Below are positions 7,370 to 35,393 of a stretch of DNA of 35,393 bases, one piece after another (within the stretch, counting starts at the first letter, position 1; every line of letters begins with the position of its first letter). The DNA is from a virus. The notes under the pieces are model-generated. The model did no database searches. It was not told where the DNA came from and saw only the letters and a program-made list of their open reading frames with translations. The DNA is taken from the IMG/VR virus record IMGVR_UViG_3300034062_007600, positions 1-35,393 of that record, one strand, 5' to 3'. A program made the position numbers and the translations under genes.

Positions 7370-8227
7370 ATGAGCAATCGCTTCAATGTGTTGTCGAATC
7401 GAACCGTGGCCGGGCTCGACCTCTCCGCGGATCGCTCCGACGCGGACCTTCGCACGGCGATGGGCCTCGGCGGTGCGGCGCTCCTAAACGTGGGCGTCGG
7501 CGCGGGCAAGGTCGCCGCGGGCGACGACTCGCGCATTGTCGGAGCGGTTCAGACCTCGCGCACCTTCGGCGGGCTCGACCTCTCGGCGGATCGCAGCGTC
7601 GCTGCGGTGAACGCCTCGCTCAATGCGCGAAGCGAATTCACCCTCGACTCTGGCTGGACTGACGTAATCAGTTCGGGATCGATCTCTCGCGCGAGCGGGG
7701 TGACCACGCTTGGCGTCACGTCCGGCGGGCTCGTGCGGCAACACCGCGCGACGATCTGCACACCCGAAAGCCCCAACGTCGAAATCATTGGCCGTTTCGT
7801 GGTCACGAGCACGATCCCGCCGCCGACTGTGTGGCACACCGCGTTGATGTTGGCCGACGAGAACATCAATTACGGCTTCATGGTTTTGGTTTTCGACAAT
7901 GCGGGCGTCGGTCTCTACAAGGGCGATGGCGCTGGCCTGACGCTTCAAGCGGCGACTGGCGCAAACGCCGTTGTGTTTACGGGCTCTTCGTGGGTTCGAC
8001 TCGTGGTGACGCCGAGCTATGCCAGCGCGAGCTACGGAACGTCCGCCACGAGCACTCCGCCGACCTCCTGGACGGTCGCGGCCACCGCGGCGACCACGGT
8101 CGCGACTCTCGCCGGAGGGTGGCTGAATCGCATCCAGGTGCGGATGGGCAGAACCGCGGCAGGATCGGGTACCTACACCTGCGAATGGCGTAACGTTCAG
8201 GCCCGCATTCTGGGGAGCGCACCGTGA
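7370..8227 (+). CDS. Second tail fibre or receptor-binding protein
   Basis: The product is 285 residues from ATG 7370, preceded by one of the strongest ribosome sites in the genome (GAGGAGGAGGAC, 7358-7369), suggesting high or independent expression. The N-terminal 90 residues hold a near-perfect internal repeat: GLDLSADRS occurs twice (about residues 14-22 and 69-77). Between them is ALLNVGVGAGKVAAGDDSRIVGAV, a widespread fibre-shaft motif. The rest is a beta-rich domain ending in TYTCEWRNVQARILG, suggestive of a lectin-like jelly-roll. It lies directly after the propeller fibre and is probably the distal or accessory receptor-binding protein. The specific fold is a guess. Confidence 0.65.
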   Translation: MSNRFNVLSNRTVAGLDLSADRSDADLRTAMGLGGAALLNVGVGAGKVAAGDDSRIVGAVQTSRTFGGLDLSADRSVAAVNASLNARSEFTLDSGWTDVISSGSISRASGVTTLGVTSGGLVRQHRATICTPESPNVEIIGRFVVTSTIPPPTVWHTALMLADENINYGFMVLVFDNAGVGLYKGDGAGLTLQAATGANAVVFTGSSWVRLVVTPSYASASYGTSATSTPPTSWTVAATAATTVATLAGGWLNRIQVRMGRTAAGSGTYTCEWRNVQARILGSAP

Positions 8228-8442
8228 TCAAAATCGGAACGCACGTCGCTTACGCATTCGCCGTCGCGCCCACGATCCCGCGCCTCGCGATCGTGGCGGA
8301 GACTCGCGCGGAAAACCCTGATTTTCCCGACGACGAGACGGTTTCGCTCGTGGTGTGCAATCCCACGGACATTACGCACGTCACGCGCGTCCCGTGGAGC
8401 GCCACGCTCCAGCCCGGCCACTGGACGGAGCTCCTGCCGTGA
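8224..8442 (+). CDS. Small hypothetical protein after the fibre genes
   Basis: The 72-residue product starts at GTG 8224, overlapping the fibre stop (GTGA), with GGGGAG six bases upstream. It reads as a single small beta domain (VAYAFAVAP, RLAIVAETRA, ETVSLVVCNPTDITHV) without signal peptide or membrane helix. Its own stop overlaps the start of the receiver-domain gene. Position suggests a fibre chaperone or a minor tail component, but no family is recognised. Confidence 0.6.
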   Translation: MIKIGTHVAYAFAVAPTIPRLAIVAETRAENPDFPDDETVSLVVCNPTDITHVTRVPWSATLQPGHWTELLP

Positions 8443-9179
8443 GACTCCTCGTCATCGAAGACCAGGCGTCCATCCGCGTCGCCGCGGCCTCGCTCCTCCG
8501 TGCCCACGGCCATGACGTGCGCGAGGCCGGGACGGTCGCCGCGGCGCTTGCCGCGCTGGACGATTCGACGCCGGAGGCAGTGATCCTCGACCTCGCACTG
8601 GACGCGCCCTCCGCGGCCCTCCACGAGCGACTCCGCGAGTGCGGCGCTCCCGTGCTCGTGGTGTCGGGCGTGGAGGAGGAGCGTGCGCGTCAGGTCTCGG
8701 AGGCCTTCGGCTGGCAGCTTCTCGCCAAGCCATTTGAGCCCGACGACCTCGTGTCGCGCGTGGCGTCGCTCCTCCCCTCACGCCGACCCTCGAGGCCGCA
8801 CGTGCTCCCTCCTCCTCCTCCTCCAGCTCCAGCGGCCACCACGCCGGTCGCTCCGCCGACCGAACGCCCGCCGCTCGAGGCGCTCCCCTCGCTCGCTCTG
8901 CCGGGCGCTCCCGACCCGTGGCGCGATCGCATCCGCGTGGTGGCCGACAGGATCATCTACGCTGGCGCGCTCGTGGCCGTGGTCGTGCTCGCCCTCCGCG
9001 GCAAGCTGGACGTTGCGACCACCGGCGCGATCCTCCTCGTGGCGGGCGTCCGTCCCCACAACCTTTTCGAGGCCGCGACCGCCGCGCGCAACGGCGGCGG
9101 AAGTCCGCGCGCCGGAGTGGCGCTCCTCCTCGCGCCCGCGCTCGAGTCGCTCCGCCACGGGACATGGCTGGCCCGATGA
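8439..9179 (+). CDS. Receiver domain fused to holin-like membrane domain
   Basis: The 246-residue product starts at GTG 8439 (GTGA overlap). Residues 1-112 form a complete response-regulator receiver domain. It has LLVIEDQ (acidic E7, D8), AVILDLAL with phosphoacceptor D51, VLVVSG with S76, and LLAKPFEPDDL with K97 followed by the conserved Pro. All residues needed for Asp phosphorylation are present. Residues 113-160 are a Pro-rich linker. Residues about 171-187 (RIIYAGALVAVVVLAL) and 192-204 (VATTGAILLVAGV) form two membrane segments split by a short charged turn, and 225-235 is hydrophobic too. That C-terminal part looks like a small phage holin. The following genes are a lipoprotein and a candidate endolysin, so this sits exactly where a holin is expected. 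Phospho-regulated lysis is inference; a membrane-bound decoy for a host sensor kinase is the main alternative. Confidence 0.78.
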   Translation: MRLLVIEDQASIRVAAASLLRAHGHDVREAGTVAAALAALDDSTPEAVILDLALDAPSAALHERLRECGAPVLVVSGVEEERARQVSEAFGWQLLAKPFEPDDLVSRVASLLPSRRPSRPHVLPPPPPPAPAATTPVAPPTERPPLEALPSLALPGAPDPWRDRIRVVADRIIYAGALVAVVVLALRGKLDVATTGAILLVAGVRPHNLFEAATAARNGGGSPRAGVALLLAPALESLRHGTWLAR

Positions 9180-9376
9180 CCCGCGCCCTCGCCCTCCTCC
9201 TCGCCCTCGCCCTCCTCCTGCCCGGGTGCGGCGCGTCCGCTCTCCCGATCGCCCTCAAAGCCCTCGCGGGCGTGGCCGCGCTGGCGGAGGAGCTCGAGCG
9301 CACGAGCCGCGCGCCAGCGTGCGATTGCGGGTGCCCGACCTCACGCGACGCGTCCGCGGAGGCGGTGGACCCGTGA
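9176..9376 (+). CDS. Small lipoprotein in the lysis block (candidate o-spanin)
   Basis: The 66-residue product starts at ATG 9176 (ATGA overlap). It has a textbook lipoprotein signal: R at position 3, a Leu/Ala core, and lipobox LPGC with C18 as the lipidated residue. The mature part is about 49 residues with a short helix (ALKALAGVAALAEELERT) and a Cys cluster, ACDCGC. Small outer-membrane lipoproteins beside endolysin genes are usually Rz1-type spanins. No typical Rz partner with a long coiled coil is obvious; the protein at 10323 is the only candidate. The lipobox is clear and the spanin role is inferred from context. Confidence 0.7.
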   Translation: MTRALALLLALALLLPGCGASALPIALKALAGVAALAEELERTSRAPACDCGCPTSRDASAEAVDP

Positions 9377-10326
9377 GCAATCGCGTCGTCGCTCCCGGGG
9401 TCGGCTTCACCGTCTACGACCCTGGCCCGGGCTCGGACCTCCTCCCGCTCCTCGAGTCGCCGGAGGCGGCGGAGCTCCTCCGCGCGTCGGATCACGTCAC
9501 GCTCCACACGCACGCCGACGCCAGCGATGTGCGCGCGGCACAGCAGCTCCGCGCGCGCCATCCGCACCTCCGCGTGTGGCTCGCCTGCCCGGCCAACTAC
9601 CTGTCCCGCATGGACCTCGAGCGCGGCCGCGCGACCGTGCTCCTCGAGGTCTCGCGCGTCGCGCGGATCGCGGCGGACGCCGCCGTTGAAGTCCTCGAGT
9701 GGAACGGCGAGGGAGCCTCCAGCGGCACGGTCGCAGGCGACTGGACTTCGGCCGCGGGCGACTCCCGCGAGAGGGCCCGCCTCGCGACTTTGGGGACGGC
9801 CGTGCTCCAGGCGTCGCGGATGGGCTTCGCTGGCGCGCTCGCCTGGACCTCTCACGACGGCGTGAGGAGCTTCGCGGTCCCCCGCTCCGTGCTCGCACAC
9901 GTCGACCTTCACGCGCCGCAGCACTATCCCGCCGCGCCTGGACAGACGGCATCGCAACGCACGCTCGAGCGCCGCATCGCATGGTCCGCGGGCCAGTGGG
10001 ATGTACTCGTGCGCGAGGGCGCGTGCCCGCCCGGCACCGCCCCGTGGGGCGAGAGTTGGAGTCCCTATCTGCAGGGCCACGGCCACTCGCTCGGAGCCCT
10101 CGTGTGGGGCCTCTCCGTCGCGCGGACGGGCAGGCTTTGGGCCTTCCCCCGCTCTTGGGATCACGGCGTCGCCCGCGACGCCCTGCGGTTGGCGCGCGCG
10201 CTCCGCGCCCGCGTGGGCTTCGGCCCGTCCGCGGTGGAGGACTGGCAGGCCTCGCAGGGCCTCGAGCCGGACGGCGTGGTGGGTCCGCGCACGCTCCGCT
10301 CGCTCGAACTCGCGGCGAGCTCGTGA
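9373..10326 (+). CDS. Candidate endolysin: unassigned catalytic domain plus peptidoglycan-binding domain
   Basis: The 317-residue product starts at GTG 9373 (GTGA overlap). The last 37 residues form a PG_binding_1-type module, with AVEDWQASQGLEPDGVVGPRTL as its core, which targets cell-wall peptidoglycan. The first 250 residues fit no lysozyme or amidase that I recognise. Alternating strands and helices (VTLHTHADASDV, LRVWLACPANY, ATVLLEVSRVARIAADAAVEVLEWNGEG, GFAGALAWTSHDGV, HVDLHAPQHYP) suggest a TIM-barrel glycosidase. E in VLEWNGEG or D/H in HVDLHAPQHY could be catalytic. There is no signal peptide, so release would need the holin-like gene upstream. Confidence 0.65.
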   Translation: MSNRVVAPGVGFTVYDPGPGSDLLPLLESPEAAELLRASDHVTLHTHADASDVRAAQQLRARHPHLRVWLACPANYLSRMDLERGRATVLLEVSRVARIAADAAVEVLEWNGEGASSGTVAGDWTSAAGDSRERARLATLGTAVLQASRMGFAGALAWTSHDGVRSFAVPRSVLAHVDLHAPQHYPAAPGQTASQRTLERRIAWSAGQWDVLVREGACPPGTAPWGESWSPYLQGHGHSLGALVWGLSVARTGRLWAFPRSWDHGVARDALRLARALRARVGFGPSAVEDWQASQGLEPDGVVGPRTLRSLELAASS

Positions 10327-10799
10327 GTCGGCCGGAGCTGGCCTTCGCCCTCGCGCTCCTCGTGGTGGGCGTGGCCATCGTGCGGTGGGCCTCCGTGGCC
10401 CGCCGTCGGCCCTCCGCGCCCTCCTCCGCGCCGGGCCCTGGCGACCGCGAGGAGCCGCAGTGCCGCGCGCGGGGGTGCTCCTCCCCGGCGACCCGCGCCC
10501 TGCCGGAGCTCCGCCCCTGGAGGCCGCTGGCGGGCCTCCTCCCGCGATGGGAGACGGAGACGGACCCGGAGGGCGACCCCGCCCTCTGCCGGGCCCACCA
10601 CGGGGCGCTGGAGGCCGCTCTGGCGGCGCGTGCGGCCGACGAGAGGGCCGCGACAGAGTCGCACCTTGCGTCGCGGCACCGCGACCTTGTGGCATGGGTC
10701 TCGTCGCAGCTCTGCCGGGATCACGGGATCGCGCCTCCACCGGCGCGTCCGACTCCGCGGCCGTCCGCGGAGAGCGAGGCGGTGTCACTCGACGGGTGA
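10323..10799 (+). CDS. Membrane-anchored Cys/His protein at end of lysis block
   Basis: The product is 158 residues from GTG 10323 (GTGA overlap). One N-terminal membrane helix (about residues 5-23, LAFALALLVVGVAIV) is followed by RRR, predicting an N-out/C-in or signal-anchor topology. C47, C52, C89 and H92/H93 could form a zinc site. A helix rich in Ala, Glu and Arg follows (ALEAALAARAADERAATESHLASRHRDLVAWV). It could be the inner-membrane partner (i-spanin) of the lipoprotein at 9176, though its helix is short for that and the Cys site would be unusual. It is the last gene of the rightward block; its stop lies inside a strong hairpin. Confidence 0.6.
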   Translation: MSRPELAFALALLVVGVAIVRWASVARRRPSAPSSAPGPGDREEPQCRARGCSSPATRALPELRPWRPLAGLLPRWETETDPEGDPALCRAHHGALEAALAARAADERAATESHLASRHRDLVAWVSSQLCRDHGIAPPPARPTPRPSAESEAVSLDG

Positions 10800-25280: not shown

Positions 25281-25444
25281 TGGCCGCGGAGCTCTCCCTC
25301 GCCCTCCAGGCCCTCCGCGTGCTCCGCGCCGCGCTCCTCGAGCGGGTGGCGGACCCGGAGGCCCGGGCCCTCGTGTCCCGATCGCTGGACGCCGCGGTGG
25401 AGCACGTGCGCGCGGCGGCGCTTGCCGCAGGGGTGCGCCCGTGA
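25280..25444 (+). CDS. Small helical protein
   Basis: The 54-residue product starts at ATG 25280, seven bases after GGAGG; GTG 25277 just before it is also possible. It is a helical hairpin (LSLALQALRVLRAALLERVADPEARALVSRSLDAAVEHVRAAALAAG). Function is unknown. Confidence 0.55.
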   Translation: MAAELSLALQALRVLRAALLERVADPEARALVSRSLDAAVEHVRAAALAAGVRP

Positions 25445-25638
25445 GCCGCCGCTTCGACCCTCTCGCCCTCGCGCCCATCGCGACCTCCCTCGCCTCCGCC
25501 GCGGTGGAGCTCGCGGCGGTCGCGGAGCTGGCGCGCGGACAGTCCGACGCCGCGACGTGGATTCTGGCCGTCGCGGGGTGGGCGGGCCTCGCGTGCTCCG
25601 CTCTGGCGGGACTCGCACTAGCGGAGCGCCGACCGTGA
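25441..25638 (+). CDS. Small membrane protein
   Basis: The 65-residue product starts at GTG 25441 (GTGA overlap). Two hydrophobic stretches are seen: LAPIATSLASAAVELAAVAEL, and the stronger WILAVAGWAGLACSALAGLALA. It is probably an inner-membrane protein with one or two helices. Superinfection exclusion is a typical role of such cassette genes but is not shown by the sequence. Confidence 0.55.
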   Translation: MSRRFDPLALAPIATSLASAAVELAAVAELARGQSDAATWILAVAGWAGLACSALAGLALAERRP

Positions 25639-25910
25639 CCGCCCGCGGCCCGGGCCGTCGGCCCCTCAATCTCACGACGCTCGCGGCGGAGCTCCACCGG
25701 CTCCTCGCCGGTGTTCCTCCCGCATGGGTGCGCCCGCGGACGCTCCAGAGCCTCCAGCGGGCGCGGGAGCTCCTCCAGCGTGACCTCCGCGCGGCGCAGT
25801 CCTCCTCCTCCTCCCTGGAGGCGTTGGCGGGCACGCTGGAGGTCTCTCCGACCACGGCCGACGGCCTCGTGCGCGCGGGCCTCCTCGAGCGCCGGAGGGA
25901 GGCGCCGTGA
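25635..25910 (+). CDS. Small hypothetical protein with HTH-like end
   Basis: The 91-residue product starts at GTG 25635 (GTGA overlap). A basic start leads into helices LTTLAAELHRLLAG and TLQSLQRARELLQRDLRAA. After a serine run comes ALAGTLEVSPTTADGLVRAGLLERR, which resembles a helix-turn-helix. It may regulate the cassette. No family is recognised. Confidence 0.55.
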   Translation: MTARGPGRRPLNLTTLAAELHRLLAGVPPAWVRPRTLQSLQRARELLQRDLRAAQSSSSSLEALAGTLEVSPTTADGLVRAGLLERRREAP

Positions 25911-26809
25911 GCATCGATCCATTCCGCCTCGCGGCACCCGCCGTGGTCAATGTCTCGGGCGGGCGGACCTCCGCCCTCCTCCTCCGGCGAGTGATGGACG
26001 CGCACGGCGGTCGACTCCCGCCGGGCGTTTTCGCGGTGTTCGCGAACACCGGAGACGAGCATTCGCGCACGTTGGAGTTCCTCTCGGAGATTGCAGTCGC
26101 ATGGGGCGTCGACCTGCGATGGATCGAACGCGACCGGTCGCTCGAACACGGCTTCGCGGAGGTCACCTTCGAAACCGCGTCGCGGCGCGGAGAGCCCTTC
26201 GCAGACCTGATTCGACAGAGACGATTCCTCCCGAACGCCACCGCGCGATTCTGCACGGTGGAACTGAAAATCGAAGCCATGCGTGCGTTTATGCGGGCGC
26301 AGGGATTCGACCACTGGACGTCCGCCGTGGGCCTGCGCTTCGATGAGGCGCGGCGCGTGGCGCAGCACCGGGAGCGCCAGCGGGAGGAGGAGGACTTCGA
26401 CAGTGTCTATCCGCTCCACCGCGCGCGGGTCACGCGCGAGGACGTGGAGGCATTCTGGCGGGGACAGCCCTTCGACCTCGGACTCCCGCCGTGGGCAAGC
26501 AATTGCCGCGGGTGCTTCCTGAAAAGCCGCTCCATCCTCGAGCGCACGGAGCGCGATGCGCCGGGAGCTCTCTCGTGGTGGGCGCAGCGGGAGGCGGAGG
26601 TCGGCGGGACGTTCGTTCGCGGGCGGCGCTATCTGGACGTGATCGCGGACGCCGCGCGCCCGATGCTTCCGATGGCGCTGGACGGCGAGGAAGTATCCCC
26701 TGCGTGCTCGTGCACGGATCGCCGTCGCCCGCGCCGGTGCTCATGCCGCCGGAGGCGCGGAGAGGGCCACGCCCTCACGTGCTCCACCGTGCTCGGAGGC
26801 GCGTCGTGA
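25907..26809 (+). CDS. PP-loop ATPase, PAPS-reductase-like
   Basis: The 300-residue product starts at GTG 25907 (GTGA overlap). SGGRTS (17-22) is the PP-loop that binds ATP, in the variant form of phage PAPS-reductase-like proteins. FANTGDEHSRTLEFLSEIA is the next conserved segment. FCTVELKIEAM and CRGCFLKS (C200, C203) match the substrate and Cys motifs of the family, and ACSC/RCSC near the end add more cysteines. Members activate substrates with ATP for sulphur transfer, for example in DNA phosphorothioation (DndC) or tRNA thiolation. The phage role is unknown. It lies beside a methyltransferase remnant, hinting at nucleic-acid modification. Confidence 0.75.
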   Translation: MSIDPFRLAAPAVVNVSGGRTSALLLRRVMDAHGGRLPPGVFAVFANTGDEHSRTLEFLSEIAVAWGVDLRWIERDRSLEHGFAEVTFETASRRGEPFADLIRQRRFLPNATARFCTVELKIEAMRAFMRAQGFDHWTSAVGLRFDEARRVAQHRERQREEEDFDSVYPLHRARVTREDVEAFWRGQPFDLGLPPWASNCRGCFLKSRSILERTERDAPGALSWWAQREAEVGGTFVRGRRYLDVIADAARPMLPMALDGEEVSPACSCTDRRRPRRCSCRRRRGEGHALTCSTVLGGAS

Positions 26810-26953
26810 GGCTCCGCGTCACGATCGGATCGCTCTTCGCCGGGATCGGCGGGCTAGAGCTGGGACTCGAAAGTGCCTTGCGTGAGGGAGGTTTTGATGC
26901 CGAAACGACATGGCAGTGCGAGCGTGACGAATGGTGCCGTCGAGTCCTCGCGC
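26806..26953 (+). pseudogene. Truncated cytosine-C5 DNA methyltransferase
   Basis: From GTG 26806 (GTGA overlap) the first 49 residues match the N terminus of Dcm-type enzymes. Motif I is GSLFAGIGGLELGLE and the next conserved block is WQCERDEWCRRVLA. After about 26953 homology stops and the frame runs into Ser/Arg/Pro-rich sequence. The catalytic PC motif and the recognition domain are missing, so it cannot methylate DNA. The frame remains open into the DUF2213 gene. It is the last coding piece before the terminator hairpin, so a deletion joined it to the head genes. Confidence 0.8.
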
Positions 26954-27180
26954 CCCGCTCCGCGCGTGCCCGACCGGCCTCCTCCTCCTCCTCCTCGCGA
27001 TTGACCCGCGCTCGTCGGCGTGCGACAGTCCCCCCGCTAGTCGCTCTCTCCCCCCTCCCGACAGCATCGCAACGCCCGCGCGCTCCCCGGCCGCGGGCGT
27101 TGTGGTTTCGAGCGCGTGGAGGGATTGCGTGCCACAACCCCCTTGCGCCGCGCACCCGCCGCCGCGCACCCTCGCGCACC
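26954..27180. other. Non-coding stretch with terminator and late element
   Basis: After the methyltransferase remnant there is a CTCCTC run and a C-rich stretch. A strong hairpin (27070-27102) follows, then the second copy of the late promoter-like element. No credible gene is seen, although one reading frame stays open. Confidence 0.65.
27070..27102 (+). terminator. 11-bp terminator hairpin at the end of the accessory cassette
   Basis: CAACGCCCGCG (27070-27080) and CGCGGGCGTTG (27092-27102) pair perfectly around an 11-base loop, followed by TGGTTTCG. It separates cassette transcription from the head operon. Confidence 0.7.
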
Positions 27181-27183
27181 GTG
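27125..27183 (+). promoter_or_regulatory. Conserved late promoter-like element, copy B
   Basis: Second copy of the element at 3334. TTGCGT is at 27125-27130, TTGCGC at 27143-27148, and CACCCT at 27167-27172 after the same 18-base spacer; the GTG at 27181 follows eight bases later. It comes just after a terminator, exactly where a new promoter is needed. No ribosome site precedes the GTG. Confidence 0.6.
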
Positions 27184-28314
27184 CCTCGAGTGCAGCGCAC
27201 AGACCTCTCCGCCGGAGCCCGTCCGGCAGTCACCCGCCTCGAGTCCGGCGCGATCCGTCTAGACGCGGCCGTGACGCGCGTCGGCGTGCTGCAGTACTCG
27301 GACGGCGAGACCACATGGGGAGAGCTCAAGCTCCCGGAGGAAGTTTTCTCGCCGGACTCTCTCGCGACCCTGCCGGGCGTCGCGGTGACCGTCGGCCATC
27401 CCGCGGAGCTGGTGACGCCCGATACGTGGGCCGCGGTCGCAAAGGGCCACGTCGCAGACGGCGTGCGGCCGGAGCGCGGGACCGGGCTCGTGGTCGCTCC
27501 CGTGGTAGTGGCGGACGGCGCCACGATCGCGGCCGTGGAGCGTGGTGACCTCCTCGAGGTGAGCGCGGGGTACACGTGCGACCTCGAGGCGTCGGAGGGC
27601 GTCTACGACGGCGTGCGCTACCGAGCGGTTCAGCGCGCCATTCGATACAACCACGCGGCGCTCGGCCCACAAGGTTGGGGCCGCGCAGGCGCGGACGTGC
27701 GTCTTCGCCTCAATGGGGCCGCCGTCGAAGTCTCACACCAGGAAGCACCAATGCCGAAAGACCCGAAAGACAAGCCGATGATGGACGCTCCGCCGGAGGC
27801 CGCTCCCGCCTCGCCGGAGGCTCCCGCCTCGCCGGAGGCCGCTCGCATCGCGGCGCTCGAGGCTGCCCTCGCAGACGCGATGCGGTCCAACGCGATGCTC
27901 AAGGCACAGCTCGAGGCGATGAAGCCCGCGGCGCCGGAGCTCGAGGTGGAGCTCGAGGACTCCCTCCCGCCCGCCGTCCAGGATTCGATCGCCAGCAAGC
28001 GCCTCGCGCTCCTCGCGGGCGTCCGCGCCGTGTGCGGGAGCGACACCCGCACGGACGGCGTGTCGTCGGCCGACCTGCGCCGCGCCGTGGTCTGCCGGGC
28101 CTTCCCCAGCGTCAAGCTCGACGGGCTGGACAACAAGGCCGTCGCCGCGCTGGCGGACGCCGCGCTGGACGCCGCGTCCTCCTCCTCCCGCACCCTCGCC
28201 CTCGCCTCCGCGCATCCCGGCGCGCCGCGCGCGGACAGCCTCTCCGACACTGACCCCGCGGACGCTCTCCGGCGCCGCACCTCCAGCGCGTGGGCCGCGC
28301 GGAAGGACTCCTGA
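27181..28314 (+). CDS. DUF2213-type prohead protease/scaffold protein
   Basis: The product is 377 residues from GTG 27181. The upstream in-frame sequence is remnant and regulatory DNA, and the family begins near here. Residues 15-185 match DUF2213: RLDAAVTRVGVLQYSDG, ELKLPEEVFSPDSLATLPGVAVTVGHP, GDLLEVSAGYTCDLE, YRAVQRAIRYNHAALGPQGWGRAG. The conserved His and Ser residues suit a prohead protease. The rest is Pro/Ala-rich followed by a coiled coil (ARIAALEAALADAMRSNAMLKAQLEAM), as in scaffolds. An internal ATG at 27751 may start a separate scaffold. Confidence 0.85.
   Translation: MPRVQRTDLSAGARPAVTRLESGAIRLDAAVTRVGVLQYSDGETTWGELKLPEEVFSPDSLATLPGVAVTVGHPAELVTPDTWAAVAKGHVADGVRPERGTGLVVAPVVVADGATIAAVERGDLLEVSAGYTCDLEASEGVYDGVRYRAVQRAIRYNHAALGPQGWGRAGADVRLRLNGAAVEVSHQEAPMPKDPKDKPMMDAPPEAAPASPEAPASPEAARIAALEAALADAMRSNAMLKAQLEAMKPAAPELEVELEDSLPPAVQDSIASKRLALLAGVRAVCGSDTRTDGVSSADLRRAVVCRAFPSVKLDGLDNKAVAALADAALDAASSSSRTLALASAHPGAPRADSLSDTDPADALRRRTSSAWAARKDS
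27751..28314 (+). CDS. Possible nested scaffold from internal start
   Basis: ATG 27751 is in frame within the DUF2213 gene, with AGGA seven bases upstream. It would give a 187-residue protein holding only the linker and coiled-coil scaffold part. Lambda Nu3 arises in the same way inside gene C. ATG codons with good ribosome sites are rare here, which supports use, but it could be chance. Confidence 0.4.
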   Translation: MPKDPKDKPMMDAPPEAAPASPEAPASPEAARIAALEAALADAMRSNAMLKAQLEAMKPAAPELEVELEDSLPPAVQDSIASKRLALLAGVRAVCGSDTRTDGVSSADLRRAVVCRAFPSVKLDGLDNKAVAALADAALDAASSSSRTLALASAHPGAPRADSLSDTDPADALRRRTSSAWAARKDS

Positions 28315-34479: not shown

Positions 34480-35393
34480 CGCGCTGCGCGAAGTCTTCGC
34501 GGAATTCGGGATCGAATTCGACGATGCGCAGCTCCAGAAAGGCGCGCAATCCGTCCAGGGCGTGATCGCTGGCGTCCGGCAACTCGCGCAGGTGATCGCG
34601 GGCAACGCAATCGTCGGCGCGATCCGCGAATTCGCCAACGCCTTCGAAGAGCAGGCCGGGAGACTCGAGGACACCGCCGGTGCCCTTGGAACAACGACGC
34701 GTGCGCTCCAGGAAATGCGCTTCGCGGCGGTAAGCGCGGGCCTCTCCACGGAGCAAGCGGACGGGGCGCTACAGCGATTCCAACAGACGGTGGCCGACGC
34801 CGCGGCGACGGGCGGACGGCAAGCGGAGACCCTCCGCGCGATCGGAGTCCAGGCGCGCGGCGCGGATGGCCAGGTCCGCCCGCTTTCGGAACTCTTCGAC
34901 GCGGTCGCGGCGGGGCTCGGTTCCGTCGAAGACCCCGCGCGGAGGAGCCAGATTGCCGTTGACCTCTTCGGCCGCTCCGGAGCCCGCCTCGCGAACGTTC
35001 TCCACGAGGGCGAGGGTGGTGTGGCCGCGCTCCGCGCGGAGCTGGACACACTCGGCGGAGGGATGCTCCCGGAGGCCATCGCGGCGGCGGGAGAATACGG
35101 CGCGGCCACCGACCGCAACGCCGTTGCGCTGGACGCTCTCCGCTCCGTCCTCGCGACCGCGCTCTTGCCGATGCTCACGGCCTTCGTGACGCGCGTGACG
35201 GAGGTCTCCGTGGCGCTCGTGCGACTCGCGCGCGGGACGCACGTGGTAGAGCTGGCGCTCTCCGCGCTCGGAGTCGCCGCGACCGTCACGGCCGCGCGAA
35301 TGCTCCGCGCGTGGCTTCCCGTCCTCCTCCCCTTCGCCAAGGTGGCTCTGGCTATCGGCGCGATCGTCCTCGTGATGGACGATCTCATCACCC
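34472..35393 (+). CDS. Tail tape measure protein, N-terminal part (continues at base 1)
   Basis: Starts at GTG 34472, overlapping the previous gene by eight bases, and runs off the end in frame. It has ADALREVFAEFGIEFDDAQL, a helical amphipathic start, then EDTAGALGTTTRALQEMRFAAVSAGLSTEQADGALQRFQQTVADAAATG and VDLFGRSGARLANVLHEGEGGV. These are conserved tape-measure segments of contractile phages. With 1-789 the protein is 527 residues. Only the joining of the two ends shows this. Confidence 0.88.
   Translation, partial: MADALREVFAEFGIEFDDAQLQKGAQSVQGVIAGVRQLAQVIAGNAIVGAIREFANAFEEQAGRLEDTAGALGTTTRALQEMRFAAVSAGLSTEQADGALQRFQQTVADAAATGGRQAETLRAIGVQARGADGQVRPLSELFDAVAAGLGSVEDPARRSQIAVDLFGRSGARLANVLHEGEGGVAALRAELDTLGGGMLPEAIAAAGEYGAATDRNAVALDALRSVLATALLPMLTAFVTRVTEVSVALVRLARGTHVVELALSALGVAATVTAARMLRAWLPVLLPFAKVALAIGAIVLVMDDLIT
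35267..35393. repeat. Right copy of 127-bp terminal direct repeat
   Basis: Identical to 1-127; see the left copy. Remove one copy when closing the circle. Confidence 0.95.

Follow-up and report, generated by a model that had tools for sequence, protein, structure and literature searches.

A response-regulator receiver joined to a membrane part in the lysis cassette of three uncultured phages: a possible holin with two-component input

How holins keep time, and whether they sense the condition of the host, has long been an open question, and it is raised by a single gene at 8439-9179 of the viral record examined here: does this gene encode a holin whose hole formation is controlled by a response-regulator receiver on the same polypeptide? 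The gene sits between the tail-fiber end of the tail module and the genes for a lipoprotein, a candidate endolysin, and a 158-aa protein (Table 1). The window, that is, the whole 35,393-nucleotide stretch of DNA analyzed, begins and ends with the same 127 bp in direct orientation (1-127 and 35267-35393). This exact repeat makes it very probable that the assembly is complete and circularly closed, at ~35.27 kb. The phage has a contractile tail; its recognized gene products are the baseplate hub, baseplate J, tail sheath, portal, terminase, major capsid protein, and DnaB helicase. A phosphoadenosine phosphosulfate reductase-like gene is inserted in the head module at 25907-26809 (phrog_424, E 4e-44), and a fragmentary C5-cytosine methylase match was found at ~26800-26950 within the frame 26491-28314, in the same frame upstream of the head protease; this fragment may be a separate small gene.

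Table 1. Features of the lysis region and other holin candidates in the window
Feature	Coordinates	Strand	Basis
72-aa gene in the interval between tail fiber and receiver gene	8224..8442	+	phrog_2293, E 3.2e-5, family of unknown function
Receiver-membrane fusion protein	8439..9179	+	Open frame, GTG start, 246 aa
Receiver domain, residues 1-112	8439..8774	+	Pfam PF00072, AlphaFold2, Foldseek PDB
Pro/Ala-rich linker, residues 113-158	8775..8912	+	Sequence; pLDDT <50
First membrane segment, residues 167-185	8937..8993	+	Kyte-Doolittle (KD) 2.16 over 19 residues
Second, weak membrane segment, residues ~192-204	9012..9050	+	Hydropathy 1.22, marginal
Small lipoprotein, 66 aa, outer-membrane-spanin-like	9176..9376	+	Signal peptide and lipobox LLPGC
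Candidate endolysin, 317 aa	9373..10326	+	C-terminal peptidoglycan-binding domain, PF01471 (PG_binding_1), E 6e-6
158-aa protein, possible holin or regulator	10323..10799	+	One N-terminal segment, KD 2.22 at residues 7-25
65-aa protein, rival holin candidate, head region	25441..25638	+	Two hydrophobic stretches; gene call and hydropathy

The 8439-9179 frame overlaps each flanking gene by 4 nt, and its product is composed, from N to C terminus, of a receiver, a Pro-rich linker, and a membrane segment. Comparison of the window with a 90%-identical relative, L003, gave a dN/dS of 0.053 for this gene, versus 0.19 for the endolysin and 0.17 for baseplate J in the same pair, indicating that it is not a chance frame; the fusion gene is under purifying selection. 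When the parts of the gene were compared in this pair, dN/dS was 0.039 for the receiver and 0.052 for the membrane part. The idea that an internal start yields a short holin-only product was rejected: in-frame GTGs precede the membrane part, and none has a convincing ribosome-binding site.

The receiver was assigned by both family and fold. Residues 4-108 matched Response_reg (PF00072) with an E value of 2.9e-10 and 40.7 bits against a curated cut-off of 30.2. Structure prediction of residues 1-112 by AlphaFold2 gave an alternating beta-alpha receiver fold (pLDDT ~83), and response-regulator receivers were the top Foldseek matches in the PDB, so that a five-fold beta-alpha receiver fold is indicated by the two methods together. 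The original prediction had listed all the phosphorylation residues of a receiver, and E7/D8, D51, S76, and K97 were indeed found at these positions, with 8589-8591 as the acceptor codon of Asp51. The window protein therefore agrees with PF00072 receivers such as Spo0F, PhoB, and NtrX in sequence family, in fold, and in phosphorylation residues; however, these are DNA-binding, enzymatic, or stand-alone proteins, whereas it belongs to a phage lysis cassette and has a membrane hairpin as its output. Family profile searches detected neither a DNA-binding nor an enzymatic output domain on the fusion protein. PHROG_731 scored better than Pfam on the window receiver, yet it spans only residues 1-118 and is thus uninformative about the fusion. 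Assignment to the divergent phage "cREC" receivers tied to NAD systems was rejected, as the window protein instead matches the ordinary receiver family.

Relatives of the gene were found in IMG/VR. Three near copies of the window were recovered: G002 is identical to it over 18.9 kb, L003 encodes a protein with 96% identity, and L004 is truncated. Two distant homologues were also obtained, P0006 from G001 (36.3 kb) and P0010 from G004 (14.2 kb), and the window, G001, and G004 were taken as three distinct uncultured phages. G001 likewise carries 127-bp terminal repeats, and its contig is probably complete and circularly closed; IMG/VR classifies both this record and the window record as linear despite the repeats. 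P0006 and P0010 each consist of a receiver, a Pro-rich linker, and a membrane part, and their genes lie directly before a lipoprotein gene, which is followed by the candidate endolysin in the window and G001 and by an unclassified hydrolase-like gene, different from that endolysin, in G004. Full-length identity between the groups is ~40%, with the second acidic residue, acceptor Asp, Ser, and Lys all invariant (D8, D51, S76, and K97 across four aligned sequences). The PF00072 score was 38.3 bits for P0010; for P0006 it was 30.1 bits in protein mode, just under the cut-off, and the genome search gave 32.3, which exceeds it.

The window and G001 have in common the endolysin (59%) and the receiver gene, and their DnaB and replication-initiation genes are weakly similar; nothing in common was detectable between their heads and tails, and their terminase, portal, and capsid proteins fall into different PHROG families. 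G004 is a mosaic of window-like tail genes (40-50% protein identity) and G001-like early genes (79% DNA identity). From this mosaic gene content it follows that the receiver gene keeps its lysis position while its surroundings change. Outside these records, no usable match came from tblastn of an annotated-phage collection with the window protein, its receiver alone, P0006, or the membrane hairpin, while a control search of this collection with a portal query returned 1904 records. Plasmids gave no match. Bacterial genomes searched with the endolysin, and likewise 297 genomes of one phylum, contained no relative, and hence neither a prophage nor a host was found. In a helicase scan, generic bacterial DnaB genes were the only matches. 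The high G+C content and Cys-rich lipoprotein of G001 give an impression reminiscent of Myxococcota.

A Pro-rich linker followed by two closely spaced membrane segments had been predicted behind the receiver. The linker was confirmed at residues 113-158, and the first segment was supported by its KD value of 2.16 and by a low-confidence helix at 160-186 in the AlphaFold2 model of the window protein. The second segment, which follows the turn RGKLD and appears as a short helix in the model, is marginal in the window copy (1.22) but is clear from hydropathy in the G001 and G004 homologues, which have three to four hydrophobic segments. In the window copy, therefore, only the first segment of the C-terminal part is strongly predicted to insert into the membrane. 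The C-terminal part was unreliable in both AlphaFold2 models, and the second model, with P0010 first, had low confidence. When G001 is compared with G004, identity reaches 80% in the hairpin (residues 146-196) against 50% in the receiver (permutation p 1e-4), with dS of 0.52 and 0.69, respectively. That the hairpin is the best-conserved part is unlike the expectation for a passive anchor; nevertheless, the membrane part is strongly diverged between the window and G001/G004, which weakens this conservation argument for the window copy.

The lysis context agreed with the original prediction, in that the next genes encode a lipoprotein, with the lipobox LLPGC, and then a candidate endolysin, with a peptidoglycan-binding domain (E 6e-6). 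Lipobox genes occur at the equivalent position in G001 and G004. PHROGs and other profile searches gave no spanin family match for 9176-9376, and the inner-membrane spanin partner was not identified. The N-terminal 270 residues of the candidate endolysin matched neither a family nor a solved structure. In G001, a metallopeptidase-like gene (L007:1244-1915) with an HEWCH motif and a weak DUF6782 match lies between the lipoprotein and endolysin genes. The protein encoded directly after the window endolysin (10323-10799) contains Cys/His pairs reminiscent of a zinc-binding motif and had no family match in Pfam, PHROGs, or other profile searches, and the 25441-25638 product is small-holin-like by size.

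In phage lysis, an endolysin without an export signal is expected to be served by a hole-forming holin. As the endolysin at 9373-10326 has no signal or membrane segment at a KD value of at least 1.3, a holin is expected here. The fusion protein is located in the lysis cassette, has at least one membrane segment, and is the sole integral membrane protein with a counterpart of common descent in each of the three cassettes. The prediction of a receiver fused to a holin-like membrane domain in a lysis cassette thus held in three phages as regards the fusion and the cassette, whereas Pfam, PHROGs, and NCBIfam gave no holin family match for the fusion protein. Many holins are orphans by sequence, so the missing match lowers holin membership by sequence only. 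We tentatively read the 8439-9179 product as a membrane protein of the lysis cassette and most likely as the holin, with hole formation controlled by the N-terminal cytoplasmic receiver; both the holin function and the phospho-control are what we infer from these data.

No histidine-kinase ATPase domain was detected in the five viral records, and the phosphate would thus be supplied by the host or by small phosphodonors. In the proposed mechanism, a histidine kinase of the host, or else a small phosphodonor, would phosphorylate D51 and thereby alter receiver-receiver contacts. These contacts may promote or block clustering of the attached membrane hairpins, acting as a trigger or a brake, and clustering would determine the moment of membrane opening, upon which the signal-less endolysin would reach the wall. 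A broader proposal, which we hold with still more reserve, is that otherwise unrelated phages have a class of holins that carry their own two-component receiver, through which host kinase signaling would set lysis timing directly at the protein level.

Alternatively, though we consider it unlikely, the fusion protein could be a lysis regulator, a membrane-bound receiver that restrains or releases a separate small holin, as RI and RIII act on T4 holin T. On this account, and with the same low probability, the separate holin would be the 10323-10799 product in the window and a 54- or 62-aa protein in the other two phages. Small membrane proteins do follow the hydrolase in all three cassettes, those of G004 (62 aa, L020:7900-8088) and G001 (54 aa, L007:2921-3085) being 52% identical to each other and belonging to no known family. 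A distant relative, L034, also has a two-segment membrane protein after its endolysin, in line with this alternative; as this phage has, in addition, a one-segment protein before the endolysin, position alone cannot tell which protein is the holin. However, the G001 and G004 proteins are not homologous to window proteins, including the small one after its endolysin, whereas the receiver protein is common to all three phages. As to a conventional holin elsewhere in the genome, which would count against the fusion protein being the holin, the small membrane proteins at 10323-10799 and 25441-25638 could be one, yet none is homologous across all three cassettes.

Somewhat less probable is that the fusion protein, anchored in the membrane, drains a two-component pathway of the host as a phosphate sink or decoy and is unrelated to hole formation. 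Such a role would accord with the intact set of phosphorylation residues and the lack of a DNA-binding or enzymatic output domain; nevertheless, a hairpin more conserved than the receiver in G001/G004 is not predicted for a passive anchor, and the receiver gene keeps its lysis position amid changing surroundings. That the receiver is an interaction or oligomerization module working without phosphorylation in another lysis or envelope protein, for example in superinfection exclusion, is improbable, because homologues with ~40% overall identity all retain the acidic residue, the acceptor Asp, the Ser, and the Lys, although receivers are generally known to be capable of functioning unphosphorylated and lysis genes often have membrane proteins of unknown role as neighbors.

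The original prediction knew of no described phage holin with a receiver domain, and the literature, with incomplete coverage, likewise yielded no receiver-bearing holin or lysis-cassette membrane protein. The T4 holin T with its antiholins RI and RIII resembles the window protein in principle only, in that a soluble domain reads a signal for holin timing; in T4, separate antiholins without a receiver domain sense superinfection (PMC11413866). For the N4 pinholin gp63, a cytoplasmic holin region is proposed to take a regulatory signal, as in our reading of the window protein (PMC12642591). The "Receiver domain" of gp63 was rejected as a precedent, as the term merely names a conserved stretch near the membrane segment and not a response-regulator receiver (PMC12642591). 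PhoB-like RoeA of Yersinia entomophaga is similar in being a two-component-type regulator linked to a holin/endolysin cassette; however, it is a separate protein acting on transcription, while the window receiver is fused to a membrane protein (PMC10101115).

If confirmed, the protein would be a new variant of holin or holin regulator with two-component input. With a phospho-acceptor domain on a lysis protein, the timing input would become explicit and could be tested with single-residue mutants, and phage lysis would be tied to two-component signaling via protein activity rather than transcription. Such a protein would also show phages keeping a receiver control module while swapping neighboring genes. 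The intact receiver on a lysis-cassette membrane protein in three phages suggests that a host signal could help to set the time of lysis.
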